DNA of 64,000 nucleotides. Origin: Pseudoroseomonas ludipueritiae (GTDB taxonomy: Bacteria > Pseudomonadota > Alphaproteobacteria > Acetobacterales > Acetobacteraceae). Under the pieces are notes generated by a model. The model did not search any database. It saw nothing but the letters and a program-made list of their open reading frames with translations, and had not been told where the DNA came from. Positions 6,166 through 26,692 of this stretch are shown piece by piece. Where the stretch lies: assembly GCF_014490445.1 (NCBI RefSeq), contig NZ_JACTUZ010000007.1:28503-92502 (forward strand), in the 5' to 3' direction. How positions within the stretch are numbered: the first letter of the stretch is position 1; each line of letters starts with the position of its first letter. A program made the position numbers and the translations under genes.

Positions 6166-7230
6166 TCAGTCCTCCGCCGGCCGGCTCCGCATGAAGCGGG
6201 CGCGGTGAAGCGCGGCGGAGCCGAACTGGTTGGCCAGCACCATCGCCTTCCGCAGGAAAAGGCCCACGTCGTATTCGTCGGTGTAGCCAATGGCGCCATG
6301 CATCTGCACCGCTTCCTGCGTCACCTTCATGGCCGCCTCGGCCGCGCGGGCCTTGGCGCGGGAGACAACGGCCTGCCGCGCCAGGCCATTGGCGCCATCA
6401 TCCAGGGCGGCGGCGGCGCCTTCCACGCTGGCGCGGGTCAGGGCCAGTTGGATCTTCAGATCCGCCGCGCGGTGTTGCAGCGCCTGGAAGCTGCCCAGCG
6501 GCTTGCCGAACTGATGGCGGGCCCGCAGGTAGTCCAGCGTCATGGCGAAGGCGCGCTCCATCAGCCCCAGCAGATAGGCGGCGGTGCCGAGCGCGGCCTC
6601 GTCCAGCGCTTCCGGCAGCACGGCGGCCACATCGCCCTCCAGCCGGCGGGCGCTGGCGAGGTCCGGGCGCAGTGTGCCGTAGTGGCCGCCATCCTGAGTC
6701 TTCTGGATCTCGGCTGCCGGGGCCTCGGCGGCGTAGAGCACCATCGCCGCCCCTTCCCGCACCGGCAGCAGCACATGGCTGGCGGCTGAGGCCATGGGGA
6801 TGAACAGGCGCGGCGCTTCCGCGTCCCCCGGCGTTTCCAGGGTGTCGGGCTGTTGCTGCCAGGCGGTCAGGACAAGGTTCTCCCCCGCCACCAGCGCCGG
6901 CAGCAGCGTCTCGTCGCCGATCGCGGCCAGCAGGCGGGCGGAAAGCGCGCCGGCCACCAGCGGCTCCGGCACCAGGGCGCGGCCGAGTTCCTCATAAAGG
7001 GCGCAGGCCTCGGACATGCCGAGGCCGATGCCTCCCGCCTCCTCCGGCAGCCGCAGCCCGACCCAGCCCAGGGCGCCCATCCCGGCCCAGGTCGCCGGGT
7101 CGATGCCGGGCAGGCCGTAGCGCAGGCGGCGCACCCGCTCCAGGCTGCCATCGGCCGGCACCACGGCGGCGGCGCTGTCCCGGATCATGCGCAGGGATTC
7201 GGCGCGGTCCTCGATCATGCTGGCGGACAT
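6166..7230 (-). CDS. Acyl-CoA dehydrogenase, small-subunit type
   Basis: A 354-residue flavoprotein with the acyl-CoA dehydrogenase fold. It has the N-terminal helical domain (WVGLRLPEEAGGIGLG), a mid-domain that is poorly conserved, and a C-terminal helical domain with RHQFGKPLGSFQALQHRAADL and QMHGAIGYTDEYDVGLFLRKA. It is shorter and more divergent in the substrate-binding mid-domain than the 387-residue paralogue at 11634-12797. Such pairs often form a heteromeric dehydrogenase, but here the two genes are separated by the CoA-ligase and TTT receptor genes. It would oxidise the acyl-CoA made by the neighbouring CoA transferases or ligase. It lies 10 bases downstream of the TTT receptor gene, so it is probably cotranscribed. 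Confidence 0.85.
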   Translation of the reverse strand: MSASMIEDRAESLRMIRDSAAAVVPADGSLERVRRLRYGLPGIDPATWAGMGALGWVGLRLPEEAGGIGLGMSEACALYEELGRALVPEPLVAGALSARLLAAIGDETLLPALVAGENLVLTAWQQQPDTLETPGDAEAPRLFIPMASAASHVLLPVREGAAMVLYAAEAPAAEIQKTQDGGHYGTLRPDLASARRLEGDVAAVLPEALDEAALGTAAYLLGLMERAFAMTLDYLRARHQFGKPLGSFQALQHRAADLKIQLALTRASVEGAAAALDDGANGLARQAVVSRAKARAAEAAMKVTQEAVQMHGAIGYTDEYDVGLFLRKAMVLANQFGSAALHRARFMRSRPAED

Positions 7231-7240
7231 CCCGGCAACC

Positions 7241-8218
7241 TCAATCCAGCTTCACATTGGCCAGGCGGATCAGCTCGCCCCACTTGGCGCGTTCCGCCTG
7301 CACGAAGGCGCCAAGCTGCTCCGGCGTGCCGCCGGCAACGGTGCCGCCCTGGTCGGCCAGGCTGCGGCGCACGTCATTGTCCTGCAGCGCCGCGACAGCG
7401 GCATCGTGCAGGATGCGGATGCGGTCCGGTGGCGTGCCGGAGGGCGCGAACATGGCGTACCAGGTCTCGGAGATCACATCCGGCGCCCCGGCCTCGGCCA
7501 TGGTGGGCACATCGGGCAGGATGGCGGCGCGTTCCTTCGCGGTGACGCCGAGGGCCAGCAGCTCGCCGCCCCGGATATGCGGCAGCACCACCGGCACGTC
7601 GGCCAGGATCATGTCGATGGTGCCGGACAGCAGGTCCGTCACCGCCGGCGCGGCGCCGCGATACGGCACGTGCACGATGTCGATGCCGGTCTTCAGCTTG
7701 AACAGCTCGCCCGCCAGATGCAGGGAGGAACCATTGCCGGCGGAACCATAGGTCAGTTGCCCGGGCTGCTTCCTGGCCAGCGCCACCAGCTCGGCTACCG
7801 ACTTCACGCCCTTCTTCCTGCTGACCACCAGGATCTGCGGCACCGACAGCACATGCGTGATGGGCGCCAGGTCCTTCTGTACGTCATAGGCCATGCGCGG
7901 CATCAGCTGCGGCAGCACCACCAGCGCGCCGGTGGAGGCCAGCACCGTGGTCAGCCCATCCGGCCGGCTGCGCGCTGTGGCCTCGACGCCCACCATGCCG
8001 CCGGCGCCGGAGCGGCTGTCCACCACCACCGGCTGCCCGAGCTTGGTGCTCATCACCTGCCCGATGATGCGGGCGATGATATCGGCCGGGCCGCCGGCGG
8101 CGAAGGGCACGATCATCTTCACCGGCTGGTCGGGAAAAGCAGGCTGCGCCATGGCGGGCACCGCCGGCATCGCGCAGCCGGCGGCGAGCAGGGCAAGGCT
8201 CTGGCGTCGGGTCAGCAT
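7241..8218 (-). CDS. TTT-family (Bug/TctC) periplasmic binding protein
   Basis: A 325-residue Bug protein. It has an N-terminal MLTRRQSLALLAAGC signal (RR pair, possible lipobox or cleavage at AMA-QP), then the family blocks PVKMIVPFAAGGPADIIAR, GGMVGVEATARSRPDG, HVPYRGAAPAVTDLLSG and LPDVPTMAEAG. Bug proteins bind carboxylates in the periplasm and deliver them to TctA/TctB membrane partners. No TctA or TctB gene is adjacent, so this receptor must borrow a remote membrane pair or act in sensing. Start supported by GGAGGAGAG upstream. Its place inside a CoA-linked catabolic run suggests it imports the acid degraded by that run. Confidence 0.9.
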   Translation of the reverse strand: MLTRRQSLALLAAGCAMPAVPAMAQPAFPDQPVKMIVPFAAGGPADIIARIIGQVMSTKLGQPVVVDSRSGAGGMVGVEATARSRPDGLTTVLASTGALVVLPQLMPRMAYDVQKDLAPITHVLSVPQILVVSRKKGVKSVAELVALARKQPGQLTYGSAGNGSSLHLAGELFKLKTGIDIVHVPYRGAAPAVTDLLSGTIDMILADVPVVLPHIRGGELLALGVTAKERAAILPDVPTMAEAGAPDVISETWYAMFAPSGTPPDRIRILHDAAVAALQDNDVRRSLADQGGTVAGGTPEQLGAFVQAERAKWGELIRLANVKLD

Positions 8219-8281
8219 CCTGGATCTCTCCTCCGCGCCTTTCATGAGGCGACTTTCTTTAATAAACTAGCTTATTGGCTT

Positions 8282-10441
8282 TTATGATGCCGTGCCCGCC
8301 GCGTCCATGGCTTTCACGCGCTGCGACAGCGCGATCAACGCATCGACCGCCAGCACCCGTCGGCCGGTGCAGATGAGCGGATTGATATCCAGTTCCGTGA
8401 TCGCCGGCTCCGCCGCGACAAGCTCCGCCACCCGGCACAGAATGGCCGCGAGCTGTTCGAGATCCGCCCCCGCGCCCCCGCGAAACCCCTCCAGCAGCGG
8501 GTAGCCGCGCAGGCCGCGCAGCATGCGCTGCGCCTGCTGCAGGCTCAGCGGCGCCGGGGCAACGGCGGTATCCTGCAGCAATTCCACCAGAACGCCGCCG
8601 AGGCCGACAGCAACCACCGGGCCGAAGACCGGGTCCCGCCGCGCGCCGATGATGAGTTCCACACCGCGTGGCACCATCGGCTGCACCAGCATGCCCCGCA
8701 GGCGTGGCTGAGGGGCGATGGCGGCAATCGCGGCCTCGATGCCGGCATAAGCCTCCCGCAGCATGGCGGCGTCACGCAGGTCCAGGCGCACCACGCCGGC
8801 TTCGGTCTTGTGCGGCAGGTCGGGGCTCTCGGCCTTCAAGGCCACGGGGTAGCCGAGACGCCCGGCGGCGCGCAGGGCGGTATCGAGGTCGGGCACCAGT
8901 TCCTCGGGCACCACCGGCAGGCCGCATTCCGCCAGCACCGCCTTGGCCGCCGATTCCGGCAGCACCGCCCCTGGGGCGGAGGCCAGCAGAGCCCCTGCCC
9001 GCGCCAGGGCCGCGGCATCCAGCAGTCGCGTCGGCGCCTCCGCCGGCCGGGTGGCCCAGGTGGCGCGCTCCCGCCAGGCCGCCAGGGCGGCGAAGCAGCG
9101 GTCCATGGAGGAGAAGATGGCGGCGTCCTGCACCGCCTCCGCCGCGCGCAGCACGTCTCCTTCCCGCCGCTCGGCCAGCCAGGGCACGCAGAGGAAGCGG
9201 CCATGGCGGGCGGCGATCCCGGCCATCACCGGGATGCGGGCGGCCGAGAAGGCATAGCCATGGGTATTGGGATACAGCAGCACGCCGTAGCCAGGGTCGG
9301 AGGCCAGGGCATCGGTGCAGGCCAACAGGGCTTCGGCATCGTTCAGCACCTGTGCCGTCAGGTCGCAAGGGTTGCGGGTGGAACCGTATTCCGGAATGCG
9401 CGCGGCCAGCACCGCCGCGGCACCCTCCTCCGGCTGCGGCAGGGATATGCTGTGCCGCTCCGCCGCATCGGCCGCCAGGATGCCGGCGCCACCGGAGGTG
9501 GAGACCACCGCCACCCCGGCACCACGCGGCACCGCCGGGGCCTTGGCGAAGAAGGCTGCCGTTTCGACCAGGGCCGAGAAGTCGTCGACCAGAATGGCCC
9601 CCACCTCGGCCAGTGCGGCGCGCCAGACGGCATGGCCGCCGGCCACGGCCCCGGTATGGGACAGCGCGGCGGCCGCGCCGCCCTCGCCCGAGGCCATCTT
9701 GTGCACCAACAAAGGCTTGCCCGCCCGTGCCGCGCGCCCGGCGGCCGCCAGCATCCGGCGCGGCTCGGCCAAGCCCTCCAGCACGCAGACGATGGCGGCG
9801 CAGCCCGGCTCCTCCGCCAGGTAGGCAACCAGATCTGCGGTATCCAGCCCGGCCGCATTGCCCGAGGTCAGCACATGGCTGACCGCCACGCCGCGCTCCA
9901 CCGCCTGCGCCAGGGCGAAGCCCAGGGCGCCGGACTGGCTGACGATGCCGATGGCGCGCCCCTGCGGCACCAATGGCTTTGGCCCGCCGGAGAACGTGAC
10001 GCCAGCGCCCAGCAGGAAATTTCCGAAGCCCAAGCAATTCGGCCCCAGCAGCGGCAGGCGTCCAGCAAGCGCGCCCACGGCTTCCTGTTCCGCCACACGC
10101 TCCGGCAATCCGGTCTCGGCATAGCCGGCGGCGAAGACCACCGCGCCGCCGGCACTTCGGGCGAGGCAATCCTGCAGCACCGCAGTGACACCCTCCCGTG
10201 GCGCGGCGATGGCGACGCAGTCCGGCGCCGCCGGCAGCGCGGCCAGGGAGGGATAGCAGCGCCGTCCGCCCAACGTGTCGTAGCGCGGATTCACCGGCCA
10301 GATCTCGCCGGTGAAGCCTTCCAGATTTTCCAGCACCCGCGCGCCGAAGGCCCCGGCCCGTGTGCTGGCACCAACCACGGCGATGCTGCGGGGATGCAGC
10401 AACCGCCGCAGCGCGGCATGGGAAGGCAGCGGGCGCGTCAC
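8282..10441 (-). CDS. ADP-forming acyl-CoA ligase, fused alpha-beta (acetate-CoA ligase family)
   Basis: The 719-residue protein contains, in order: a CoA-binding Rossmann domain (SIAVVGASTRAGAFGARVL, about 25-120), a succinyl-CoA-ligase-like domain with LGPNCLGF and SQSGALGF, a segment with SHTGAVAGG carrying the conserved His expected to be phosphorylated, and a C-terminal ATP-grasp domain (ALKAESPDLPHKTEAGVVRL onward, about 510-719). It makes acyl-CoA from acid plus CoA and ATP, giving ADP, or runs in reverse to harvest ATP. The start is GTG at 10441, overlapping the stop of the CoA transferase gene as GTGA, so the two are translationally coupled. Substrate unknown. A paralogue lies at 36807-38918. 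Confidence 0.88.
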   Translation of the reverse strand: MTRPLPSHAALRRLLHPRSIAVVGASTRAGAFGARVLENLEGFTGEIWPVNPRYDTLGGRRCYPSLAALPAAPDCVAIAAPREGVTAVLQDCLARSAGGAVVFAAGYAETGLPERVAEQEAVGALAGRLPLLGPNCLGFGNFLLGAGVTFSGGPKPLVPQGRAIGIVSQSGALGFALAQAVERGVAVSHVLTSGNAAGLDTADLVAYLAEEPGCAAIVCVLEGLAEPRRMLAAAGRAARAGKPLLVHKMASGEGGAAAALSHTGAVAGGHAVWRAALAEVGAILVDDFSALVETAAFFAKAPAVPRGAGVAVVSTSGGAGILAADAAERHSISLPQPEEGAAAVLAARIPEYGSTRNPCDLTAQVLNDAEALLACTDALASDPGYGVLLYPNTHGYAFSAARIPVMAGIAARHGRFLCVPWLAERREGDVLRAAEAVQDAAIFSSMDRCFAALAAWRERATWATRPAEAPTRLLDAAALARAGALLASAPGAVLPESAAKAVLAECGLPVVPEELVPDLDTALRAAGRLGYPVALKAESPDLPHKTEAGVVRLDLRDAAMLREAYAGIEAAIAAIAPQPRLRGMLVQPMVPRGVELIIGARRDPVFGPVVAVGLGGVLVELLQDTAVAPAPLSLQQAQRMLRGLRGYPLLEGFRGGAGADLEQLAAILCRVAELVAAEPAITELDINPLICTGRRVLAVDALIALSQRVKAMDAAGTAS

Positions 10442-11637
10442 GGCTCGGCCGCCGCCCCAGTGCCCAGCCATTCCTCCAGCACTTCCCGCGTGTGCTCGCC
10501 CAGTTGCGGCGGCACGCGGCCGTACTCGACCGGCGTGTCCGAGAAGCGCACCGGGTTAGCCACGAAGGGCATGGTGCCCACGCGCGGATGCGGCATTTCC
10601 TGCCACATGCCACGATGGCGCAACTGCGGGTCCTGCACCGCCGCGCCGAAGTCATTGAGCGGGCCGGAGGAAATGCCGGCTGCGTTCAGCAGATCTACCC
10701 ATTCCCCGGCGGTGCGGGCCAGCAGCGCCTGTTGCAACAGCGGCAGCAGTTCCGTCTTATGCGCCATGCGCTGGCGATTGGTCGCGAAGCGCGGGTCGGC
10801 GGGCACTTCCGGCACACCGATCACGGTGCAGAACTGCGCGAACTGCCGGTCGTTGCCCACCGCCACCATCAGCGGCCGGTCGGCGGTATCGAAGCTCTGC
10901 CAGGGCGTGTTGATCTGGGAGGCAGTGCCGGCGCGCACCGGCATCTTGCCGGAGATCATGTAGTTCATCGCGATATGCGAATGCGCCGCCACCTGCGCGT
11001 CCAGCAGCGCCAGGTCGATATGCTGGCCCTTGCCGGAGACGGTATCCCGGTGGTGCAGCGCCGCCAGGATGGCGATGGTGGCATAGAAGCCGGCATTGAT
11101 GTCCGACACGCTATAGCCCACCAGCGCCGGCCCGGCGCCGGGTGCGCCATCCGGATTGCCGGTGACGCTCAGCAAGCCGCTCATGGCCTGGAAGATCGGG
11201 TCATAGCCCGGCAGTGCGGCGTAGGGGCCGTCTTGCCCGAAGCCGGTGATGGAGCAGTAGATCAGCTGCGGGTTCACCTGGGCCAGCGAGGCGTAGTCCA
11301 GCCCATAGCGCGCGAGGCCGCCGGCCTTGAAGTTCTCGATGAAGACATCCGCCTTGCCGGCCAGCGCTCGCAGGTCCGCCTGCCCTTCCGGCGTCGCGAT
11401 ATCCAGCGCCACCGAGCGCTTGCCGCGGTTCATCGCCAGGAAGGAGGAGGTATCGCCGGTCTCCCTGCCCTCCGCGTCCTTCTGCGGAAAGCCCATTCGC
11501 CGCACGTCGTCGCCGCCTTTCGGGTGCTCGACCTTCACGACTTCCGCGCCGAAGTCGGCCAGGATCTGCGCCGCCCAGGGGCCGGCGAAGATGCGCGTCA
11601 TGTCCAGCACGCGGATGCGCGGCAGCGGGCCGCTCAT
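10438..11637 (-). CDS. Family III (CaiB/BaiF) CoA transferase, copy 1
   Basis: A 399-residue family III CoA transferase. It opens with IRVLDMTRIFAGPWAAQILADFGAEV, contains NRGKRSVALDI and CSITGFGQDGPY, and has D179 (SDINAG), which aligns with the aspartate that carries the CoA-thioester intermediate in formyl-CoA transferase and is the catalytic Asp of the racemase relatives. It moves CoA between carboxylic acids. Its start overlaps the upstream acyl-CoA dehydrogenase stop as ATGA and its stop overlaps the ligase start as GTGA. That makes a tightly coupled dehydrogenase-transferase-ligase unit. About 45% of positions by eye match the second copy at 14227-15465, so they may handle different acids. 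Confidence 0.9.
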   Translation of the reverse strand: MSGPLPRIRVLDMTRIFAGPWAAQILADFGAEVVKVEHPKGGDDVRRMGFPQKDAEGRETGDTSSFLAMNRGKRSVALDIATPEGQADLRALAGKADVFIENFKAGGLARYGLDYASLAQVNPQLIYCSITGFGQDGPYAALPGYDPIFQAMSGLLSVTGNPDGAPGAGPALVGYSVSDINAGFYATIAILAALHHRDTVSGKGQHIDLALLDAQVAAHSHIAMNYMISGKMPVRAGTASQINTPWQSFDTADRPLMVAVGNDRQFAQFCTVIGVPEVPADPRFATNRQRMAHKTELLPLLQQALLARTAGEWVDLLNAAGISSGPLNDFGAAVQDPQLRHRGMWQEMPHPRVGTMPFVANPVRFSDTPVEYGRVPPQLGEHTREVLEEWLGTGAAAEP

Positions 11638-12797
11638 GCCGGCAGGTCCAGCACGTTGCGCGCCAGGATGTTGCGCAGGATCTCGGAGGAACCGCCAAAG
11701 ATAGTGGAAGGCCGCGCCAGCAGGAACTGCCCGGCAGGGTGCAGGCCCTCGCCCGGCATCGGGTCCAGCAGGCCCGCGTTCTCGCCGGCGATCTCCAGCA
11801 TGGCGTCCGTGATGCGCTGGAAGAGTTCCGTCTGCACGATCTTCAGGATTGAGACATCGGGGCCCAGCGTTTCCCCGCGCTTCAGCTTCGCCACGAAGGA
11901 TTCATAGAGTTCCTTCAGGTCCGCCAGTTCCATGCTGAAGCGGGCATACTGGTCCAGGAAGGCAGGGTCCTGGTCCTTGCCCACCGCCACAGCTATGGCC
12001 TTCAGCCGCGCCAGCCCGTTGGAGGAGAGCTTGGGGGAGCCGATGGCGATGCGCTCGAAGCCCAGCAGCGCCTTGGCATAGGTCCAGCCCTGGTTGACCT
12101 CGCCCACCACCATGTCCTTAGGCACGCGGACATTGTCGAAGAAGACCTCGCAGAACTCGTCATGCAGGTCGAGATTGATGATCGGCCGCACCGAGACGCC
12201 CGGCGCATCCATCGGCAGCAGCAGGAAGGAAATGCCCTGCTGCTTCTTGCCCGATTTGTCGGTGCGGGCGAGCACAAAAATCCAGTTGGCGTCGTTGGCC
12301 AGCGTGATCCAGGTCTTCTGGCCGTTCAGCACCCAGTGGTCGCCGGCATCCGCCGCATCCAGCCGCAGCGCCGCGAGGTCGGAACCGGCGTTCGGCTCGG
12401 AATAACCCTGGCACCAGATATCCTCGCCCGAGAGGATGCGTGGCAGGAAGCGCTGCTTCTGCTCCTCCGTTCCGTGCTTGATCAGCATCGGGCCGAGCAT
12501 GATCAGGCCCATGTCGCTGACACGGGCGCAGCCGTGGCGCTCCAGTTCCTCGATCATGATGAGCTGCTTGGTGGCGCCGAGGCCTATGCCGCCGTATTCA
12601 CGCGGCCAGTTCGGTGCCAGCCAGCCCTGGCGGGAAAGCGCCATGTACCAGGGCTTGTTCTCGTGCCAGTGCAGGCGGCGGCGCGGGAAGCGCATCTCGG
12701 GCGGGTAGTTCGCCTCGATCCAGCGGCGCACATGCAGGCGGAAGGCGTTGTCTTCCATCTGGTCCAGCGCCTCGGGCGGCAGCGTGTCCTGGTCCAT
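11634..12797 (-). CDS. Acyl-CoA dehydrogenase, large-subunit type
   Basis: A 387-residue flavoprotein with complete acyl-CoA dehydrogenase architecture. The N-terminal helical domain has PNWPREYGGIGLG, the mid-domain signature is CQGYSEPNAGSDLA, the FAD contact region is WVLNGQKTWITLANDANW, and the C-terminal domain ends in STIFGGSSEILRNILAR. It catalyses alpha,beta-dehydrogenation of an acyl-CoA, passing electrons to ETF. The long hydrophilic insert LPMDAPGVSVRPIINLDLHDEF is of the kind found in dehydrogenases of dicarboxyl-CoA or branched substrates, though that is a weak pointer. ATGA overlap with the following CoA transferase; four bases separate it from the upstream crotonase gene. Confidence 0.9.
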   Translation of the reverse strand: MDQDTLPPEALDQMEDNAFRLHVRRWIEANYPPEMRFPRRRLHWHENKPWYMALSRQGWLAPNWPREYGGIGLGATKQLIMIEELERHGCARVSDMGLIMLGPMLIKHGTEEQKQRFLPRILSGEDIWCQGYSEPNAGSDLAALRLDAADAGDHWVLNGQKTWITLANDANWIFVLARTDKSGKKQQGISFLLLPMDAPGVSVRPIINLDLHDEFCEVFFDNVRVPKDMVVGEVNQGWTYAKALLGFERIAIGSPKLSSNGLARLKAIAVAVGKDQDPAFLDQYARFSMELADLKELYESFVAKLKRGETLGPDVSILKIVQTELFQRITDAMLEIAGENAGLLDPMPGEGLHPAGQFLLARPSTIFGGSSEILRNILARNVLDLPA

Positions 12798-12801
12798 GCT
12801 G

Positions 12802-13602
12802 TCAGACTCCCTTGAAGACGGCGGGGCGCTTCTCCATGAAGGCGCGTTGCGCCTCCTTGGTATCCTCGGCGCTGGAGAGGGCCGCCGTCTGCGTCTGCTC
12901 GAAACGGTAGCCTTCGTGCAGCGGCATTTCCTCGGTCAGGAAGAAGGAGCGCTTGGCCGCTTGCACCGCCAGCGGGCTCTTGGCCGCGATCTGCTTCGCG
13001 ATGGCCTGCGCTTCCGCCAGCAGCCGGTCCTTAGGCAGGCAGGCGGAGGCGACATTCATCCGCAGCAGTTCCGGCCCCGGAATACGGCGGGCGGTATAGA
13101 TCATCAGCCGCGCATCGGACTGCGAGAAGAAGCGCAGGATATGCCGCACGCCGCCGGCGAGGCCGACATCCACCTCAGTCATGGCGAAGAAGGCTTCTTC
13201 CGCCACCAGCACGATGTCACAGCACAGCGCCAGCACGCAGCCCGCGCCGATGGCCGGGCCATTGACGGCGGCGATGACCGGCTTGCCGCATTCCATCACG
13301 GCGTCGAAGGCGGCACGCACCCGGCGGTTGTGGCCGGGATAGGCACCGGCCTCGCCGGCCAGGTTCGGCCGCTCCCGCAGGTCGGCGCCGGCGGAGAAGG
13401 CACGGCCCTCGCCAGTCAGCACCACGGCGCGCACCTCGCGCGTGTCGTGCAGCACGTCGAAGATGCGCGGCAACTCGTCGCGGAAGATGCGATCCTGCGC
13501 ATTCACTGGCGGGGCCGTCATGGTGACGGTGGCGACATGGTCTTCCAGCGTCACGGAGAAGCGCTGCAGGTCCTCAAGGCCCTTGATCGGCGCGGCGCTC
13601 AT
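12802..13602 (-). CDS. Enoyl-CoA hydratase/isomerase (crotonase) family protein
   Basis: A 266-residue crotonase-fold enzyme. The two oxyanion-hole segments are RAFSAGADL and AIGAGCVLAL. Of the two acidic residues used by classical hydratases, the first position is Val123 (GCVLA instead of GCELA) while the second, E143 in AMTEVDVGLAGG, is kept. A single-Glu active site is common in crotonase members that are isomerases, hydrolases or lyases. The true reaction is therefore open, though a hydration step after the acyl-CoA dehydrogenase remains the default guess. Its start overlaps the CMD-family gene stop as ATGA. Confidence 0.85.
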   Translation of the reverse strand: MSAAPIKGLEDLQRFSVTLEDHVATVTMTAPPVNAQDRIFRDELPRIFDVLHDTREVRAVVLTGEGRAFSAGADLRERPNLAGEAGAYPGHNRRVRAAFDAVMECGKPVIAAVNGPAIGAGCVLALCCDIVLVAEEAFFAMTEVDVGLAGGVRHILRFFSQSDARLMIYTARRIPGPELLRMNVASACLPKDRLLAEAQAIAKQIAAKSPLAVQAAKRSFFLTEEMPLHEGYRFEQTQTAALSSAEDTKEAQRAFMEKRPAVFKGV

Positions 13603-14207
13603 TCGGCGGCATCCGCGTGACTGCGGGCGGGCGGCAGCGGGAAGAGGCCCTCCGCCGGCGCCTGCACCGGTTCCGCGACGCCGTCCGGCAGCGGGATCTC
13701 ATGCGCGTTCAGCGTCATGGAGACCATGGTGTAATAGCCGATGACGCCGGTCAGCTCGACCACGCCGCGCGCGCCCCAGCGGCGCTCCACCGCGTGATAG
13801 GCGGCCTCGTCCACGCGGCCATGCAGTTGCAGCTGGCGGGCGTATTCGTAGATGGCGGCGTCATCGGCATCGCCGAAAAGCGGTGCCTCGCCGTTGCGGA
13901 TCGCCTCGATCACCGCATCCGGCAGGCCGGCGGCGGCGGCGGCGCGGGCATGCACCCACCATTCGATCTGGCTGCTCCAGCGGCGGCCGGTCACGATGAT
14001 GGCCAGCTCGTTCAGCCGCGGCGGCAGGCAGGTGCCGAAGCGCAGGAACTCGCCCAGCTTCGACCAGCGGTCGGCAAGGTCGGGGCTGTGGATCACGGCG
14101 CGCAGCGGGCCGATCATCTGCCCGCGCGGGCCGGACACCACGGCGTCATGAACGCGAAGCTGTTCCGGCGACATCTCGGCCGGCGAGGGCAAGGGGATAC
14201 GCGGCAT
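13599..14207 (-). CDS. Carboxymuconolactone decarboxylase (CMD/AhpD-like) family protein
   Basis: A 202-residue all-helical protein of the CMD family. It shows LPPRLNELAIIVTGRRWSSQ followed by EWWVHARAAAAAGLPDAVIEAI and GVVELTGVIGYYTMVSMTLNAHEIPLP. It lacks the CxxC redox pair of AhpD peroxidases, so peroxidase activity is unlikely; members of this group often accompany CoA- or lactone-metabolising genes without a proven reaction. The start MPRIPLPSPAE is chosen by family match. A close relative lies at 59693-60241, with the same N-terminal (MPRL..P..MTPEQ) and C-terminal pattern, in another catabolic cluster. Couples to the crotonase gene by an ATGA overlap. Confidence 0.85.
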   Translation of the reverse strand: MPRIPLPSPAEMSPEQLRVHDAVVSGPRGQMIGPLRAVIHSPDLADRWSKLGEFLRFGTCLPPRLNELAIIVTGRRWSSQIEWWVHARAAAAAGLPDAVIEAIRNGEAPLFGDADDAAIYEYARQLQLHGRVDEAAYHAVERRWGARGVVELTGVIGYYTMVSMTLNAHEIPLPDGVAEPVQAPAEGLFPLPPARSHADAAE

Positions 14208-14226
14208 CAGTGTTTCTTCCTCGGCC

Positions 14227-15465
14227 TCAGACAATTCCACGGGATTGAAGGTCCTGGCGGCGGGCGGCATCCAGGCCCAGCTCTTCCAGGATCTCGGCGG
14301 TATGCTGGCCCAGCAGCGGCGGCGGGCGCTCGAAGGCCAGCGGGTTGGTGGCGAAGCGCATCGGGCTGACCACCTGCGGCACGGTGCCGGCCAGCGGATG
14401 CGGCAGGTGCCGCAGCATCTGCCGGTGCTGGATCTGCGGGTCCTCGAAGACCTGCGGGATCTCGTTGATGGGGGCGCAGGGCACGCCTGCGGCATCCAGC
14501 TTCGCCGCAAGTTCGGCGCGCGTGAAATCCGCGAAGCGGGCAGTCAGCAGCGGCGTCAGTTCCGCGTTGTTGCGCACGCGGTCGGGGTTCTTCGCGAAGC
14601 GGGCGTCGGTGGCCCATTCCGGCCGGCCCAGCGCCTCGCAGAGCTTCACGAACTGCCCGTCATTGCCCACTGCCAGCACCAGATGCCCATCAGCGCAGGC
14701 GAAGACATCCTGCGGCTGGATGTTCGGGTGGCGGTTGCCGCCGCGCTTCGGCGTGCGGCCGGAGACCAGCCAGTTCATGGCCTGATTGGCCAGGAAGGCC
14801 GATTGCACGTCCAGCATGGCGAGGTCGATGGTCTCGCCCTCCCCGCTCTCCGCCCGCCGCGCCAGGGCGGCCAGGACGGATACGGCGGCGTACATGCCGG
14901 TCATCAGGTCCACGATGGGTACGCCGACCTTCTGCGGGCCGCCGCCGGGCATGTCGTCCCGCTCGCCGGTCACGCTCATCAGCCCACCCATGGCCTGGAT
15001 GGCGAAGTCATAGGCGGCCTGGTCGGCGCGCGGCCCGTCCTGGCCGAAGCCGGTGACGGAGCAATAGATCAGGCGCGGGTTGACGGCGCGGAGCGAGGCG
15101 GCATCCAGCCCATACTTCGCCAGGGCGCCGGCCTTGAAGTTCTCCAGCACGATATCGGCGGACTTGGCCAGTTCGCGGATGATGGCCTGCCCTTCGGGCT
15201 TGGCCATGTCCACGGTGACGGAACGCTTGCCGCGATTGACGGAGAGGAAATAGCCGGCCTCCCGCGTCGGCTGGCCATCCTGGTCCTTCAGGAAAGGCGG
15301 GCCCCAGGAGCGGGTGTCGTCGCCAGCGCCCGGCCGCTCCACCTTGATCACATCGGCGCCAAGGTCGGCCAGGATCTGCGTGGCCCAGGGCGCGGCCATG
15401 ATCCGGCTGAGGTCCAGCACCCGCACATGCGCCAGCGGGCCCTGGCGCTTCGGTGCCTCAGTCAT
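14227..15465 (-). CDS. Family III (CaiB/BaiF) CoA transferase, copy 2
   Basis: A 412-residue CaiB/BaiF protein with VRVLDLSRIMAAPWATQILADLGADV, VNRGKRSVTVDMAKPEGQ, CSVTGFGQDGP and D186 (IVDLMTG) as the predicted covalent-intermediate aspartate. It differs from copy 1 in the residues around the acyl pocket and has a longer C-terminus. It overlaps the glutathione S-transferase gene by eight bases upstream and is 19 bases from the CMD gene downstream, so it is embedded in the operon. Two CoA transferases in one run suggest either two acids are activated or that one primes and the other recycles CoA. Neither acid can be named from sequence. Confidence 0.9.
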   Translation of the reverse strand: MTEAPKRQGPLAHVRVLDLSRIMAAPWATQILADLGADVIKVERPGAGDDTRSWGPPFLKDQDGQPTREAGYFLSVNRGKRSVTVDMAKPEGQAIIRELAKSADIVLENFKAGALAKYGLDAASLRAVNPRLIYCSVTGFGQDGPRADQAAYDFAIQAMGGLMSVTGERDDMPGGGPQKVGVPIVDLMTGMYAAVSVLAALARRAESGEGETIDLAMLDVQSAFLANQAMNWLVSGRTPKRGGNRHPNIQPQDVFACADGHLVLAVGNDGQFVKLCEALGRPEWATDARFAKNPDRVRNNAELTPLLTARFADFTRAELAAKLDAAGVPCAPINEIPQVFEDPQIQHRQMLRHLPHPLAGTVPQVVSPMRFATNPLAFERPPPLLGQHTAEILEELGLDAARRQDLQSRGIV

Positions 15466-16087
15466 CGACGGCTTCCGTGGCCTGGGCGGAGGGACGGGCG
15501 CGGAAGGTGTCGTGCCAGGCGGTCAGCGCCGGGCGGCCTTCGCGCCAGCCGAGGTCAGGGAAGCGGAAATCGAGATAGGAGAGCGCGCAGCCGATGGAGA
15601 TATGGCCGATGTCGAAGGGCAGCGCCGCCAGGGCGGGTGCGTCCTTCTCCAGCCGCGCCAGGGTGGCCTCGGTCTTGGTGGCGAAGCTCTTGAGCCATTC
15701 CTCGGTCTGCTGCGCGGCAGGCTTGTCCCGCTCGTTGCGCCAGAGGATCAGCAGGTCCAGGAAGCCGGTGCCCAGGGCATGCCGCGTCAGCGCCGCCCAG
15801 CGCTCTGGCCCTGCCGGCGGGAACAGGCCGCCGCCTGCCATGTGGTCCAGGTATTCGCAAATGGTCAGGGAGTCGAAGATCGCCGAGCCATCCGGCAGCA
15901 CCAGGGTCGGGATCTTGCTCAGCGGGTTGTCGGGCAGCAGGTCCTGGTTGGGCATGCCCATGCGCACCACGGTGCGCACCCGCGTGATCCGGTCCTCCAG
16001 CCCCAGCTCATGCGCCGCCACCATCACCTTGCGGACGAAGGGGGAGCGCGGGGACCAGTGCAGCGTCAGGCTTGAATCGGCAGTCAT
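15458..16087 (-). CDS. Glutathione S-transferase family protein
   Basis: A 209-residue protein with a thioredoxin-fold N-terminal domain (LTLHWSPRSPFVRKVMVAAHELGL; the glutathione-contact segment IPTLVLPDGSAIFDSLTICEYLD) and an all-helical C-terminal domain (about 88-205). The SPRSPFVRK motif places Ser where catalytic Ser or Cys sits in bacterial GSTs. Such GSTs in catabolic operons act as isomerases, dehalogenases or detoxifiers of reactive acyl intermediates; which applies here is unknown. It is the first gene after the promoter region at 16088-16167, so it leads the transcript that continues through the two CoA transferases, the dehydrogenase and the ligase. Confidence 0.85.
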   Translation of the reverse strand: MTADSSLTLHWSPRSPFVRKVMVAAHELGLEDRITRVRTVVRMGMPNQDLLPDNPLSKIPTLVLPDGSAIFDSLTICEYLDHMAGGGLFPPAGPERWAALTRHALGTGFLDLLILWRNERDKPAAQQTEEWLKSFATKTEATLARLEKDAPALAALPFDIGHISIGCALSYLDFRFPDLGWREGRPALTAWHDTFRARPSAQATEAVDD

Positions 16088-16102
16088 CAGGCCGCATCCT
16101 CC

Positions 16103-16134
16103 AAAAGGTCTTTAGGTCATTTGTATAACCTTTT
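16103..16134. promoter_or_regulatory. Candidate GntR operator and promoter region ahead of the GST-led operon
   Basis: In the 80-base gap between gntR and the GST gene, AAAAGGT (16103-16109) and ACCTTTT (16128-16134) form a perfect 7-bp inverted repeat. Inside it sit CTTTAGG (16110-16116) and GTATAA (16123-16128). The same two elements occur ahead of the fumarase-like gene pair at 19485-19497. The block is strikingly AT-rich for this genome. The regulator encoded immediately upstream is the obvious candidate to bind it. Confidence 0.5.
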
Positions 16135-16167
16135 AGACTTGGAGGAAGACGAGGTCCAGCCCTGGCG

Positions 16168-16938
16168 CTACTTCAACTTGATGTCGATCCGCACGGTATC
16201 GCCGCGATAGATACCGTCCGCCACCAGCACCAGCACGCCATTGGCATCCACCGCCGCGCGATGCACCAGCGCCACCGGGGCATTCAGCGGCACCTGCAGC
16301 GCGGCGGCCGTTTCCACATCGGCCGTGCCGATGGTCAGGGTCTGGCGGGCATCCACGATCTTCACGCCCTCCAGCCCCGCCACCAGCCGCAGCGCGGTCT
16401 TGCTGCGGAGGTCCTCCGGCGTCACCAGCGGCGCCAGCCGCTCATCCAGATAGACATCGGCCAGCAGGAAGGGGCGGCCATCGCGCCAGTGGCGGCGGCG
16501 GATATGGCGATAGGCCGGCGCCGGCTCCCCGATGGTGTCGGGCAGCGTGCTGCCGGGCACGTCGCCCTCCTCTCCCAGGATCTCGATCTCGGCGCCTTCG
16601 CGGGAGCGGAGCAGGCCGTTCCAGTCCGTCTCCACCGCGCACCAGATCGGGCTTTCCGGCCCCTTGCGCACGAAGGTGCCCTTGGCGCGGTAGCGCTCGA
16701 TCAGCCCTTCCTGCTCCAGCTGCCCCAGAGCCTGGCGGATGGTGGCGCGGGCCACGCCACATTCTGCGGCCAGGTCGTCCACCGTGGGGATCTGCTGGCC
16801 CAGCTTCCAGGTCCCCTGCTCAATCCGCCGGCGGAAGAGCGTGGCCAACTGGATGTAGCGGGAGACGGCGCTGCGGCTGAGATCGACCTTGCCGGTCGTG
16901 GTGGCACCGCCGGAGGGTCGGGTGGTGATCGGGTCCAT
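16168..16938 (-). CDS. GntR-family regulator, HutC type with UTRA domain
   Basis: A 256-residue regulator. The winged helix (about 25-95) contains YIQLATLFRRRIEQGTWKLG, QIPTVDDLAAECGVARATIR and QALGQLEQEGLIERYRAKGTF. The C-terminal UTRA ligand domain (about 110-250) contains YRHIRRRHWRDGRPFLLADVYLDERLAPLV. HutC-type regulators usually repress a neighbouring catabolic operon and release it on binding a small acid. The start MDPITTRPSG is supported by AGAAGG five bases upstream. It sits between the hydroxyacid dehydrogenase and GST genes, with an AT-rich inverted repeat just downstream and a related element ahead of the hydro-lyase pair, so it probably controls both halves of the 6166-19432 run. 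Confidence 0.9.
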   Translation of the reverse strand: MDPITTRPSGGATTTGKVDLSRSAVSRYIQLATLFRRRIEQGTWKLGQQIPTVDDLAAECGVARATIRQALGQLEQEGLIERYRAKGTFVRKGPESPIWCAVETDWNGLLRSREGAEIEILGEEGDVPGSTLPDTIGEPAPAYRHIRRRHWRDGRPFLLADVYLDERLAPLVTPEDLRSKTALRLVAGLEGVKIVDARQTLTIGTADVETAAALQVPLNAPVALVHRAAVDANGVLVLVADGIYRGDTVRIDIKLK

Positions 16939-16970
16939 GCCGCCTTCTCTCATACCCAGGGGGCGCTGCG

Positions 16971-17906
16971 CTACCCGGCGCCGGCCGTGGCAAGGGCGGC
17001 GACATTCAGGAAGGGCTCGCCCGCCCGGAAGCGCCCGATATCGGCCAGCAAGCGGCCGATGATGGCCTGCCGCGTCTCCCCGGTCAGGGAGGCGTAATGC
17101 GGCGCCAGCACGGCGTTCCGCAACGGCAGGAAGCGCGGGTCCAGCTTCGGCTCGGTGGCGAAGACATCCAGGCCGGCCCCGGCGATGGTCTGGCCTTCCA
17201 GCGCCGCCAGCAGCGCCGCCTCATCCACCACCGAGCCCCGGGCGATATTCACCAGGAAGCCGCGCGGCCCCAGCGCCGCCAGTACCCGCGCATCGACGGC
17301 ATGGTGCGTGGCCGGGCCGCCGGGGCAGGCCAGCACCAGCACATCGGCGGCGGCGGCCAGGGCGGCGATATCCGGCAGATAGGTCCAGGGCAGTTCCGGC
17401 TTTGGGCGTGGGCCGCTCCAGGCCACAACCATGCCCAGGCCGGCCGCGCGGCGGGCGATGGCCTGGCCGATCTTGCCCATGCCGAAGACGCCTACCGTCT
17501 TACCAGACAGACCAACACCTAGCCCCATTCGCTCCGGCCCCCAGCGGCCGTCGCGGACGAAGCGGTCGGCCTCCACGATGCGGCGGGCGGCGGCATACAT
17601 CAGGCCGATGGCGAAATCGGCCACGTCCTCGGTCAGCTCATCCGGCGTGTGGCAGACGGCGATGCCCCGGCGCGCCGCGGCGGCGAGGTCGATCTTGTCC
17701 AGCCCCACGCCCTGGGAAGCAATCAGCCGCAGGTCCGGCAGGCTTTCCATCAGTGCCGCATCGGCCCCGGCCATGCCCGTGGTGATGGCGATGCGGACGC
17801 CTTCCGCCGGGGTGCCGCCCTTTTCCACGAGCGTGTAATGCTCCGCCAGCGCGGCGCGAAGGTCCGCTGGAATCGGCGCCAGCAACAGGATGGGTTCGGA
17901 TGTCAT
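16971..17906 (-). CDS. D-2-hydroxyacid dehydrogenase (glyoxylate/hydroxypyruvate reductase type)
   Basis: A 311-residue NAD(P)-dependent dehydrogenase. The nucleotide-binding site is GMGKIG (142-147), and the catalytic triad is R223 (NIARGSVVDE), E252 (FATEP) and H270 (APHYAS). Family members reduce 2-oxoacids such as glyoxylate or hydroxypyruvate to D-hydroxyacids, or the reverse. The ATG at 17906 is used; a GTG at 17927 that overlaps the upstream stop as GTGA would add seven residues and is equally possible. Placement directly after a class I hydro-lyase pair suggests it acts on the keto acid or hydroxyacid linked to that reaction, for example a tartrate- or malate-like compound. Confidence 0.88.
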   Translation of the reverse strand: MTSEPILLLAPIPADLRAALAEHYTLVEKGGTPAEGVRIAITTGMAGADAALMESLPDLRLIASQGVGLDKIDLAAAARRGIAVCHTPDELTEDVADFAIGLMYAAARRIVEADRFVRDGRWGPERMGLGVGLSGKTVGVFGMGKIGQAIARRAAGLGMVVAWSGPRPKPELPWTYLPDIAALAAAADVLVLACPGGPATHHAVDARVLAALGPRGFLVNIARGSVVDEAALLAALEGQTIAGAGLDVFATEPKLDPRFLPLRNAVLAPHYASLTGETRQAIIGRLLADIGRFRAGEPFLNVAALATAGAG

Positions 17907-17923
17907 CGCGGCATGTTCCTGCG

Positions 17924-18556
17924 TCACGGGTTTGTCGCCGCGCGGCGTGCCGCCAGCCCGGCCATGATCTCCGGCATCCTGTCGGCCGCCTGTTGTTGCA
18001 GGCTGTCATAGAGGCTGTTGCCATGGGCATCGATGCCCACCGTCAGCGGCCCCAGATCCTCCACCCGCAGCTTCACCAGACGGAAATGCGCGATCAGGTC
18101 GGGCCAATGGACCGAGACCACGCCCTTCACCGCGTCCGACAGCAGTGGAGAGCCGCCGCCGACGAAGGAGAGGTAAACGCAGCCCACGTCCTTCATCGCC
18201 GCCGCGCTGGCCGCGTCCAGCCCGCCCTTGCCGCCCACCATGCGCAGGCCGAAATGGCGGATGAAGCGTGGCATGTAGCTGTTGAAGCGTGTGCTGGTGG
18301 TGGGGTTGATGTAGAGCACCTCCAGCCCGCCATCCGCCGCATCGCGCGAATAGCTGCCGAGGTGGAACAGTGTCTGGCCATGCAGGCCCAGCGGAAGGTC
18401 CTTGCCGGCATCGAGATATTCCTCGATGCGCTTATGCGTCGGCAGGCCGGCGGTGAGGATGATGTCGCCGCTCAGCAACACCATCTCGCCCGCGCGCAGC
18501 GAACGGACTTCCTCGACATCCAGCGGCAGGCGCAGGCGGCGGATCTCGTCGGACAT
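17924..18556 (-). CDS. Class I fumarase/tartrate dehydratase family, beta subunit
   Basis: A 210-residue subunit corresponding to the C-terminal half of single-chain class I fumarases. It contains LSGDIILTAGLPTHKRIEEYL, GHSLFH-like LHGQTLFHLGSYS, NPTTSTRFNSYMPRFIRHFGLRMVGGKGGL and the C-terminal VGIDAHGNSLY. With the alpha subunit it forms an oxygen-sensitive [4Fe-4S] hydro-lyase that adds water to or removes water from a dicarboxylic acid such as fumarate, tartrate or mesaconate. Six bases separate it from the alpha gene. Split-subunit forms are more typical of tartrate dehydratase and of fumarases in archaea and some bacteria, so fumarate should not be assumed. Confidence 0.88.
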   Translation of the reverse strand: MSDEIRRLRLPLDVEEVRSLRAGEMVLLSGDIILTAGLPTHKRIEEYLDAGKDLPLGLHGQTLFHLGSYSRDAADGGLEVLYINPTTSTRFNSYMPRFIRHFGLRMVGGKGGLDAASAAAMKDVGCVYLSFVGGGSPLLSDAVKGVVSVHWPDLIAHFRLVKLRVEDLGPLTVGIDAHGNSLYDSLQQQAADRMPEIMAGLAARRAATNP

Positions 18557-18562
18557 GCCCCC

Positions 18563-19432
18563 CTACTCCACCCGCTCGATGCGGCCATCATTGTAGATCC
18601 GGGCACGGGTGCGGCGGTTGATCCAGCAATTGAAGCAGACCGCGACAGGCGTGAAGCCATGCCCGGCGGCATATTCGATATGCACGCCGAGAGTGGTGGT
18701 GTCGCCCCCCGTACCCATCGGGCCGAAGCCGGTCTTGTTGGTGGCCTCGGTCAGCCGGGCTTCCATCGCGGCCAGGATGGGCTCGGGGTTCACGGAGCCG
18801 AGGGGGCGCAGCGTCGCCAGCTTCGCCAGCTTGGCGCAGTAATCGAAGCTGCCGCCGATGCCGACACCCATGATGACCGGCGGGCAATGCTGCGAGCCGG
18901 CTTTCAGCACGCAATCCATCACAAAGGCTTCGATCTGTTCCAGGCTGGGACTGGTGAAAATCTCCAGCGCCGCCCAGCGGCCGGAGCCCAGCGCCTTCGG
19001 CTGGCAGGTGATGTCGATGTAGTCCGCGCCGCTCAGCACATCCCAGGTAACCAGCGGCATGTCCTTGCCGCGGTAGCTGCGCTCATTGGTCAGAGGATTG
19101 GTGACGTGCTTCAGGATGGGTGGGCTGATGGTCTCCACCAGGTGGTCGAAGCCGTCCCTGATGGCCTGCTTGATGTCGCCCTCGATGCGGGCGCCAGTGC
19201 CAAGCTGCACGAAATAGACCGGCACGCCGGAGTCAGAGCAGACCAGACGCTCCGACTGTTCCGCCACCTCCGCGCTGCGCAAGAGGATGCCGAGCGTGCG
19301 CTTGGCGAGAGGGTTGCTTTCGGCGGCCTCGGCGCGGCGCAGGGCATCCTTGGTATCGTCCGGCACCTTCTTCAGGGACCAGTCGTAGAGCTGCGCCGTG
19401 ACGCTCTTCATCAGCTCATAGGTGATCGCCAC
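18563..19432 (-). CDS. Class I fumarase/tartrate dehydratase family, alpha subunit
   Basis: A 289-residue subunit holding the iron-sulfur site. Predicted cluster ligands are C65 (LVCSDSGVP), C183 (HCPPVIMGVGIGG) and C266 or C269 (VAVCFNCW), spaced as in TtdA-type subunits. Substrate-site motifs include NKTGFGPMGTGGDTTTLG. The start is GTG with a purine-rich GGGGAGCGAGG upstream. Its genome context (GntR regulator, hydroxyacid dehydrogenase, CoA transferases) suggests it works on a scavenged hydroxy-diacid rather than being the main TCA fumarase. Class I enzymes of this family can also hydrate mesaconate. Substrate assignment remains open. Confidence 0.88.
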   Translation of the reverse strand: MAITYELMKSVTAQLYDWSLKKVPDDTKDALRRAEAAESNPLAKRTLGILLRSAEVAEQSERLVCSDSGVPVYFVQLGTGARIEGDIKQAIRDGFDHLVETISPPILKHVTNPLTNERSYRGKDMPLVTWDVLSGADYIDITCQPKALGSGRWAALEIFTSPSLEQIEAFVMDCVLKAGSQHCPPVIMGVGIGGSFDYCAKLAKLATLRPLGSVNPEPILAAMEARLTEATNKTGFGPMGTGGDTTTLGVHIEYAAGHGFTPVAVCFNCWINRRTRARIYNDGRIERVE

Positions 19433-20486: not shown

Positions 20487-20611
20487 CCTTTGGCTAGGGC
20501 GGCGGTCGCGGAAGTCCCACCACGCCCCAGCGAATTTCGCCGGATCAGACACGGCATCGCTCTGCGCCGCAAGCCCCTGCGACCGCCTCACCCAATTACA
20601 TTGAATTCCAA

Positions 20612-23150: not shown

Positions 23151-23184
23151 CTCGCGCCCAGCCGTGACCGGGGAACAGGACACC

Positions 23185-25609: not shown

Positions 25610-25640
25610 CCCCGGCCATAGCTTACCGGAACGGGAGGCT

Positions 25641-25665: not shown

Positions 25666-25677
25666 TTCCATGCCGCT

Positions 25678-26684: not shown

Positions 26685-26692
26685 CCGATCCA

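Follow-up and report, generated by a model that had tools for sequence, protein, structure and literature searches.

Thirteen genes that follow one another in a run in Pseudoroseomonas ludipueritiae look like one jointly controlled, undescribed route that carries lactones and ring-cleavage acids, probably derived from aromatic compounds, into central metabolism. With a probability of about 0.57, we read the run as the lower part of a GntR-controlled regulon for acids or lactones of the kind released when an aromatic acid undergoes intradiol cleavage; these would be processed via CoA thioesters. The run lies in a stretch of 64,000 nucleotides, the whole of which is called the window here. All thirteen genes were verified on the minus strand with intergenic gaps of at most 80 bp, and the earlier note, which had described a nearly contiguous thirteen-gene run, was right about the genes, their places and their common strand. 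No account of the cluster was found in the open-licence literature, searched mostly by titles and abstract openings, and the public names of its genes (fumarate hydratase, CaiB/BaiF CoA-transferase, carboxymuconolactone decarboxylase family protein) are uninformative or misleading. The features are listed in the order of transcription.

19656..20591, minus strand: PcaD-like alpha/beta hydrolase just upstream of the run (TIGR02427, 242.2 bits, cut-off 255.85)
18563..19432, minus strand: hydA, class I (Fe-S) hydro-lyase alpha subunit (PF05681, 2.1e-66)
17924..18556, minus strand: hydB, class I hydro-lyase beta subunit (PF05683, 8.6e-27)
16971..17927, minus strand: HADH, D-2-hydroxyacid dehydrogenase family protein (PF02826/PF00389)
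16168..16953, minus strand: GntR/UTRA (HutC-type) regulator (PF07702 and PF00392)
16112..16133, minus strand: palindromic operator-like site AAAGGTTATACAAATGACCTAA between GntR and GST, matching 11 of 12 half-site positions
15458..16087, minus strand: GST, glutathione S-transferase family protein, proposed cis-trans isomerase (PF13409/PF13410)
14227..15465, minus strand: CoAT1, family III CoA transferase, nearest to the succinate-glutarate type (PF02515; NF052585, 503.9 bits, cut-off 750)
13599..14207, minus strand: CMD, carboxymuconolactone-decarboxylase/AhpD-fold protein without conserved Cys (AF2 model and fold match)
12802..13602, minus strand: ECH, single-Glu crotonase (PF00378; NF005073, 331.4 bits, above the cut-off of 296)
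11634..12797, minus strand: ACAD1, acyl-CoA dehydrogenase, PimC-like (TIGR03204, 284.6 bits, cut-off 623.85)
10438..11637, minus strand: CoAT2, family III CoA transferase (PF02515)
8282..10471, minus strand: ADP-forming acyl-CoA ligase, fused alpha-beta (PF13607, PF13549)
7241..8245, minus strand: TctC-type solute-binding protein (PF03401)
6166..7230, minus strand: ACAD2, partner-type acyl-CoA dehydrogenase, IpdE2/PimD-like (PF00441; IpdE2 and PimD models best, below cut-off)

Enzyme families and conserved residues

Conserved residues were read from alignments, from which rows with an internal stop or coverage below 80% were left out for hydA, HADH and CMD. The three cysteines of a class I hydro-lyase, C65, C183 and C269, are invariant in 45 rows of hydA, and we take them to be the Fe-S ligands; against the NCBIfam fumarate hydratase model hydA scored 219 bits (cut-off 276). 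R230, E259 and H277 are invariant in 28 rows of HADH, and the crotonase has the E143/V123 pair in 65/65 rows. CMD retains E67, E82 and H86 throughout 104 rows, in which no column exceeds 25% Cys, so that despite its AhpD fold it lacks CxxC, the redox motif of AhpD peroxidase. The CMD fold matches come from a VIA-align re-examination of Foldseek's matches, and a family's absence from that list does not exclude it, because VIA-align only revisits what Foldseek returned. PF02515 covers the whole of CoAT1 and CoAT2 (450.8 and 423 bits), as expected for family III CoA transferases. ACAD1 resembles PimC, and ACAD2 resembles IpdE2 and PimD, with all scores below cut-off, and the two may be dissimilar subunits of a heteromeric PimCD/IpdE1E2-type acyl-CoA dehydrogenase; their genes lie apart in the window, and genes of the two types adjoin in loci L131, L136 and L047.

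Modules, dioxygenases and lactone hydrolases in relatives

All thirteen genes keep the same order in Pseudoroseomonas wenyumeiae, Roseomonas rosea and R. haemaphysalidis (L080, L073 and L030/L082), in line with the earlier proposal of one CoA-dependent organic-acid pathway of conserved order. Beyond these close relatives, the run breaks up into modules that can occur separately. A core of GST, CoAT1, CMD, crotonase, GntR and TctC genes appears repeatedly among alpha- and betaproteobacteria (in Roseomonas-type Acetobacteraceae, Bradyrhizobium, Rhodoplanes, Bosea, Phreatobacter and Alcaligenaceae), and a catabolic route with this core may be widespread, given its spread over so many groups. Two further modules, the hydro-lyase with the 2-hydroxyacid dehydrogenase and the acyl-CoA dehydrogenase/CoAT2 set, are present in some loci and missing from others; among full-length loci, 21 of the 22 bearing HADH also bear hydA. 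These counts refer to the best 80 of 275 confirmed stretches, 22 of them shorter than 19.5 kb and 58 full-length. CMD is in all 80 by construction, since the CMD alignment served to find the loci, and more distant members are scored absent throughout because identity cut-offs were applied (for example hydA 55%, CMD 50%, ECH 60%). Two overlapping locus sets were used, L082, L087, L096, L097, L105, L113, L126 and L159 repeating L030, L032, L029, L031, L034, L035, L036 and L037. The Paracoccus cluster has an additional PcaF thiolase and a FadB-like enzyme, and the Variovorax cluster a tannase-family hydrolase. When the other neighbouring genes were clustered, few more recurrent families emerged, four of them in 6–7 loci: one MaoC dehydratase, one MFS-type transporter and two that resemble mis-called frames.

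The cluster of some relatives also includes a PcaHG-like dioxygenase pair and lactone hydrolases, a finding that supports the aromatic-derived acid named among the earlier candidates. A divergent intradiol dioxygenase pair lies within or beside the cluster in five loci (L031, L034–L037), four of which also have an alpha/beta hydrolase, and in 16/80 loci of the second set, which includes the same five. The order TctC-dioxBA-hydAB-HADH-GntR-GST-CoAT1-CMD-ECH is collinear in L083, L090, L092 and L095. Of 17 genomes with the divergent dioxygenase, 10 carry it in retrieved stretches that contain no CMD gene (L061–L070). The relatives' beta subunits form a clade apart from the canonical ones (29 rows, after removal of identical rows from 35, versus 19; support 100/100). 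Y109, Y148, H161 and H163, presumably the Fe ligands (Tyr, Tyr, His-x-His) of an intradiol dioxygenase, are present in 29/29 relatives' and 19/19 canonical rows. Two of the relatives' beta subunits score 226–236 bits against a PcaH cut-off of 296.4, while in L034 and L035 the alpha subunit does pass the PcaG model (128.6 and 146.5 bits, cut-off 126.25). The divergent dioxygenase is a directly testable candidate for the entry enzyme.

Among lactone hydrolases, a LigI-like protein occurs in 34/58 full-length loci and the dioxygenase in 12/58, and both in only 2 (about 7 expected if independent); the PcaD-like hydrolase is found in 7/80 cluster loci and is the possible lactone hydrolase of the window version. 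The run in the window contains no dioxygenase or LigI-like gene. R. rosea has only a remnant, a dioxA stump ahead of hydA, whereas in the window the matches listed for the 223 bp upstream of hydA include no convincing dioxygenase relic. The dioxygenase has probably been lost from the window lineage, which would feed into the pathway at a later step.

A palindromic operator-like site

The palindrome AGGTCA-N6-TGACCT lies upstream of GST, hydA, ABH, CoAT1 and ACAD1. Cluster genes follow 9/9 exact and 30/36 near-exact sites, and 179 permuted half-sites gave at most 2 at the near-exact level, a control that guards against composition and not against the choice of the palindrome, whose consensus is not independent of the data because it was spotted by eye in the very upstream regions under test; nor are the sites independent events, since related loci share orthologous ones. 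At two mismatches or fewer, the site precedes GST in 21/45, hydA in 9/25 and DIOXB in 3/12 cases, compared with 1.8%, 2.0% and 0.4% of letter shuffles, in a comparison that counts some hydA/GST pairs with a common intergenic region twice. At this level it occurs in 31/41 GntR-bearing and 5/17 other full-length loci (Fisher p 0.002), while at one mismatch or fewer the figures are 17/41 and 5/17 (p 0.55), showing no association with the GntR gene. It is absent from the Achromobacter/Bordetella-type loci with a LysR gene (0/9). A search for guessed HutC-type words before the genes was unsuccessful, and promoter and terminator scans of the run gave nothing informative. A one-mismatch site also precedes an unlinked TctC-dioxB-dioxA operon in genome G011; its presence there and before cluster genes suggests that they form a regulon, in which the GntR protein may act through the predicted operator at 16112–16133. 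The palindrome is a cheap handle for finding further parts of the route.

Proposed route and alternatives

We infer the substrate, every reaction step, their order and the control by GntR from gene content and conservation. Several of the results above weigh against this reading: the window run has neither a dioxygenase nor a LigI-like gene, the stretches of 10 genomes have the dioxygenase and no CMD gene, two alpha subunits pass the PcaG model, the nine LysR-type loci lack the palindrome, its link with GntR disappears at one mismatch, and hydA is not seen in 44/80 loci. The TctC protein would capture an acid or lactone, or, in relatives, the PcaHG-like dioxygenase would make it inside the cell. 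A lactone hydrolase (PcaD-like in the window, ABH or LigI-like elsewhere) and CMD could then open the lactone and decarboxylate or rearrange it, after which GST may isomerise a cis double bond with glutathione. CoAT1 would load CoA, and the single-Glu crotonase would isomerise or split the thioester. HydAB is expected to hydrate the leftover trans-butenedioate-type acid, which the 2-hydroxyacid dehydrogenase would oxidise to a 2-oxo acid. A saturated relative may join through a side branch, in which the ligase, CoAT2 and the paired ACAD1 and ACAD2 would activate and desaturate it. More tentatively, the system could be a further intradiol lower pathway that runs parallel to the protocatechuate and gallate/2-pyrone-4,6-dicarboxylate (PDC) pathways and coexists with their genes in one genome. 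In it, an altered-pocket PcaHG-like dioxygenase would yield a muconate, interchangeable hydrolases would open the lactone of this muconate, and glutathione isomerisation, family III CoA transfer, a single-Glu crotonase split, and class I hydro-lyase and 2-hydroxyacid dehydrogenase steps would follow, all under one GntR operator.

The PcaHG-like genes of relatives, the PcaD-like and CMD-like proteins, and a LigI-type gene adjoining hydAB in L032 would also fit a branch of the protocatechuate (3-oxoadipate) or gallate/PDC pathway with HydAB in place of 4-oxalomesaconate hydratase, but this is improbable, as canonical protocatechuate and PDC-type genes are present elsewhere in the same genome. 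Contig C375 carries pobA, pcaDC, pcaH and pcaG above NCBIfam cut-offs (a pcaK-like gene falls below its own), and the run was rejected as the genome's protocatechuate route. Contig C150 carries TctC, LigI-like, PIG-L (which we take to be of the GalB type) and RraA-like genes, and because this set is present HydAB was rejected as a missing 4-oxalomesaconate hydratase. The window contains no canonical-clade PcaH or PcaG, and its CMD has no NCBIfam match at 1e-3, PcaC included, whereas the same library gives this genome's PcaDC 165.9 bits for PcaC. The 3-oxoadipate pathway shares with the cluster a PcaHG-type dioxygenase (relatives), a CMD-fold protein, a PcaD-like hydrolase, CoA transfer and a gene annotated PcaF (Paracoccus); unlike it, the run has family III CoA transferases, GST and a class I hydro-lyase, and its 13 proteins include no PcaIJ (family I CoA transferase) or PcaF thiolase domain, PcaF-like proteins being confined to some relatives. 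Nor do they include a PDC hydrolase, a PIG-L or LigJ hydratase or an RraA-type aldolase, as the LigI-GalB-LigK route would have.

Somewhat less improbable, though still unlikely, is a branched C5 dicarboxylate route ending in acetyl-CoA and pyruvate, with HydAB as mesaconase, CoAT1/CoAT2 forming citramalyl- or methylsuccinyl-CoA, and ACAD1 as methylsuccinyl-CoA dehydrogenase. According to excerpts of PMC4682846 and PMC12290011, class I fumarases hydrate mesaconate, and the pseudomonad itaconate/methylsuccinate cluster, as excerpted from PMC12290011 and PMC9875883, shares with the run a CoA transferase, an acyl-CoA dehydrogenase and a class I fumarase, there serving as mesaconase. An HpcH/HpaI lyase gene lies near hydAB in Candidimonas (L136, L154), Mameliella and Parasedimentitalea plasmids with hydAB also have citrate-lyase-family genes, and a MaoC-family gene occurs in 8/80 loci. 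However, HpcH/HpaI and MaoC domains are missing from the 13 window proteins, which also lack the MmgE/PrpD domain, the citramalyl-CoA lyase and the itaconyl-CoA hydratase of the pseudomonad cluster; three types of lyase query together found a lyase in 3/80 loci (L108, L136, L154), and CMD, GST, the lactone hydrolases and the dioxygenase are left unexplained. Use of L-tartrate or a similar hydroxy-diacid, which the HydAB family, the 2-hydroxyacid dehydrogenase and TctC would suit, is very improbable: TtdA and TtdB scored 151.7 and 106.9 bits, far below cut-offs of 365 and 264, and the core occurs without detected hydA in 44/80 loci (at 55% identity, with 22/80 loci short). At the level of sequence comparison, the tartrate and itaconate/methylsuccinate routes thus fail their defining tests, and the earlier suggestions of tartrate and of mesaconate, the latter by the known mesaconate/itaconate route, find no support. 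Chance adjacency of two transcription units for unrelated substrates, hydA to ECH and ACAD1 to ACAD2, also has a low probability. Only 5/80 loci have the ligase close to the core and only 8/80 have ACAD2 there (at least 50% identity), which tells against the earlier idea of a unit, and in L032 an ACAD1-CoAT2-ligase block is divergent and separate; but ACAD1-CoAT2 follows GST-CMD-LigI-like in Alcaligenaceae (L131, L136), and the exact palindrome precedes ACAD1 in L118 and L140. On balance, the order kept in close relatives and the operator-like site shared between modules speak rather for one unit.

The regulon reading preferred here also has partial likenesses among other systems. The 4-sulfocatechol route (PcaH2G2, 4-sulfomuconolactone hydrolase, maleylacetate) likewise has a second PcaHG-like pair and a LigI/SLH-family lactonase; to our knowledge it has no counterpart of the CoA transferase, crotonase or hydro-lyase. 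The only NCBIfam match of the two LigI-like proteins of L032 is NF042924 (184.1 and 309.4 bits, cut-off 500). Benzylsuccinate beta-oxidation (bbs) uses a family III CoA transferase, an acyl-CoA dehydrogenase and a crotonase on a dicarboxylic acid, as the run might, whereas the run has no bbsCD/bbsAB-like genes. CoAT1 is distant from the benzylsuccinate pair, scoring 172.6 and 139.8 bits with PDB 9fn0 compared with 394.3 for its best match.

Architecture and conservation of the gene run

Thirteen open reading frames occupy the minus strand at 6166-19432, confirming the thirteen-gene run described in the earlier note, and the gene families named there were found again: a two-subunit hydro-lyase (hydA, hydB), a D-2-hydroxyacid dehydrogenase (HADH), a GntR regulator, GST, two family III CoA transferases (CoAT1, CoAT2), an AhpD-fold protein (CMD), a single-Glu crotonase (ECH), two acyl-CoA dehydrogenases (ACAD1, ACAD2), an ADP-forming ligase and TctC. 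Neighbouring genes are separated by at most 80 bp and overlap by up to 34 bp, three of the overlaps being 4 bp long; the widest gap, the 80 bp between GntR and GST, contains an operator-like palindrome. The run is flanked as follows:

One side: MltB, IlvE, lipid A acyltransferase
Other side: PcaD-like hydrolase, 153-aa ORF, FUSC-family protein

The earlier note had proposed gene-order conservation as a check, and the order of all thirteen genes is kept in Pseudoroseomonas wenyumeiae (92-100% identity), the nearest named relative met, as well as in R. rosea and R. haemaphysalidis p546-1; in R. marmotae p1318-1 the crotonase is split and no GntR is annotated. Of 150 genomes in the family, 11 have a CMD relative at 61% identity or more and 7 a hydA relative at 67% or more, the CMD gene adjoining in all seven. 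A scan of genome contigs with the CMD alignment yielded 275 loci, of which the best 80, from alpha- and betaproteobacteria, were kept; CMD is thus present in each by construction, and 58 of them are full-length.

Genes detected in the best 80 of 275 CMD loci
Core: TctC 72, GST 71, CoAT1 68, ECH 53, GntR 51
Hydration set: hydA 36, hydB 35, HADH 25
Hydrolases: LigI-like 40, alpha/beta hydrolase 31, PcaD-like 7
Others: ACAD1 23, CoAT2 22, ACAD2 8, ligase 5
Dioxygenase: alpha subunit 16, beta subunit 16

GST, CoAT1 and CMD are consecutive in 47 of the 80. The presence of TctC is weak evidence because TctC matches are common in the fetched stretches. Seven control loci with CMD paralogues (45-53% identity) lacked GST, CoAT1, ECH and hydA at the identities used. 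Among the flanking genes only the PcaD-like one recurs with the cluster (7/80); MltB, IlvE and FUSC lie near it in a single locus, that of P. wenyumeiae.

Modules, dioxygenase and lactone hydrolases

Among the full-length loci, hydA accompanies HADH in 21 of 22, and CoAT2 and ACAD1 occur together in 22 of 22. On Martelella and Mameliella plasmids hydAB adjoins a different 2-hydroxyacid dehydrogenase family (Ldh), which suggests that hydration yields a 2-hydroxy acid that is then oxidised. Two Alcaligenaceae loci have the order GST-CMD-LigI-like-ACAD2-like-ACAD1-CoAT2, so the link between the acyl-CoA dehydrogenase set and the core extends to a distant lineage, but does not include the ligase.

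Five loci (L031, L034-L037) carry a Dioxygenase_C protein pair inside or next to the cluster, four of them with an alpha/beta hydrolase as well, and in four others (L083, L090, L092, L095) the pair immediately precedes hydA. The beta subunits form a clade separate from canonical PcaH (29 versus 19 rows, support 100/100); the Fe-ligand positions are kept in both, whereas position 150 is Val in 29/29 divergent and Trp in 18/19 canonical sequences. In the alpha subunit a Thr aligns to an Arg of PcaG sequences that may contact the substrate, and the divergent alpha subunits of L034 and L035 nonetheless pass the PcaG model. This dioxygenase clade occurs in 17 of 150 genomes (59-100% identity): five CMD-linked, one (G059) on a neighbouring-numbered contig, one (G011) unlinked, and ten with no CMD in the fetched stretches. 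One dioxygenase stretch without CMD (L066) holds a crotonase relative at 69%. What R. rosea retains before hydA corresponds to no more than the final 47 residues of the alpha subunit; the window has no dioxygenase, and no convincing remnant of this type was found there. LigI-like genes (34/58 full-length loci) and the dioxygenase (12/58) rarely co-occur (2/58). The alpha/beta, PcaD-like and LigI-like hydrolases may be interchangeable lactone openers.

Operator-like palindrome

The locus sequence searched totals 1.45 Mb and contains nine exact copies of the palindrome AGGTCA-N6-TGACCT, from nine loci of which several are closely related. All nine lie upstream of cluster genes, in regions that add up to 54,642 bases. 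Allowing up to one mismatch, 30 of 36 copies are so placed, while the other 179 half-site permutations gave a mean of 0.095 upstream sites at one mismatch (maximum 2). Copies precede GST, hydA, the alpha/beta hydrolase gene, CoAT1, GntR and ACAD1, the last with exact copies in two loci (L118, L140). The window genome is a draft whose 394 contigs total 5.35 Mb; in it the longer pattern has one-mismatch places at 16112-16133 and on one other contig (C2); the 12-position half-sites alone give a second one-mismatch window site at 32289, within an ORF.

At two mismatches the palindrome is found in 31/41 GntR-bearing versus 5/17 other loci (p 0.002); at one mismatch there was no association with the GntR gene (17/41 versus 5/17, p 0.55), and none of nine LysR-type loci has it. 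Whole-genome counts were little above a reversed-pattern control in most of ten genomes, so two-mismatch palindromes outside clusters mean little. G011 has copies with one or two mismatches: one sits 10 bp ahead of the unlinked TctC-dioxB-dioxA operon, counted from its called start, and others lie between flavin-reductase-family and TctC genes, before an alpha/beta hydrolase and before a GDSL-type protein. The last three may be chance. By eye, this hydrolase and the GDSL-type protein look exported.

Known routes, substrate and related loci

Judged from sequence, the run is read as a conserved, modular, apparently co-regulated catabolic pathway linked to intradiol cleavage and lactone chemistry. 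This sharpens the earlier interpretation, of which the CoA-dependent organic-acid pathway and the aromatic-derived acid as a candidate are supported. Tartrate and the mesaconate/itaconate route as known are not supported: the hydro-lyase does not pass tartrate dehydratase models, and the known itaconate route has a citramalyl-CoA lyase and an itaconyl-CoA hydratase, both absent from the run. PMC12290011 terms these two enzymes specific for itaconate degradation. Protocatechuate genes lie elsewhere in the window genome (contig C375: pobA, pcaDC, pcaH, pcaG, pcaK-like), and contig C150 carries TctC, LigI-like, PIG-L and RraA-like genes. As far as tested, the run is distinct from known routes. 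Its enzymes are of known kinds, and literature searches found no record of the gene combination, the candidate regulon or the divergent dioxygenase clade. The Variovorax version has a tannase-family hydrolase and L032 a PDC-hydrolase-like gene, and these hint weakly at gallate-like or ester-bound phenolic acids as substrates.

Related genes were also seen elsewhere in the window:

59609-61179, plus strand: CMD paralogue (42% to the run CMD), then directly an SMP-30/gluconolactonase gene; second CMD-lactonase pair of the window
23164-28811, plus strand: IclR regulator, 2-keto-3-deoxygalactonokinase, KDPG/KHG-type aldolase, then TctC, TctB, TctA; probably an operon for sugar acids, which has a TTT transporter of its own, whereas the run has TctC only
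36807-38918, minus strand: another ADP-forming acyl-CoA ligase, also fused and of the run ligase's family

On contig C57 of the same genome (L047, 5358-11546) lies a paralogous ligase-ACAD2-ACAD1-TctC block (38%, 61%, 66%, 38%) without core genes. In R. marmotae (L072, 5792-8502), R. haemaphysalidis (L073, 4237-6727) and L084 the cluster has as neighbours a gene of the aconitase family, which is accompanied by a small ORF, a flavin-reductase-family gene and TctC; in L084 hydAB went undetected. Two Rhodobacterales plasmids have HydAB relatives (hydA 61-66%) adjoining a flavin reductase (L077) or an Ldh-family dehydrogenase (L078); citrate-lyase-family and TRAP/TAXI transporter genes accompany them, and the pathway is probably a different one sharing the hydro-lyase subfamily.
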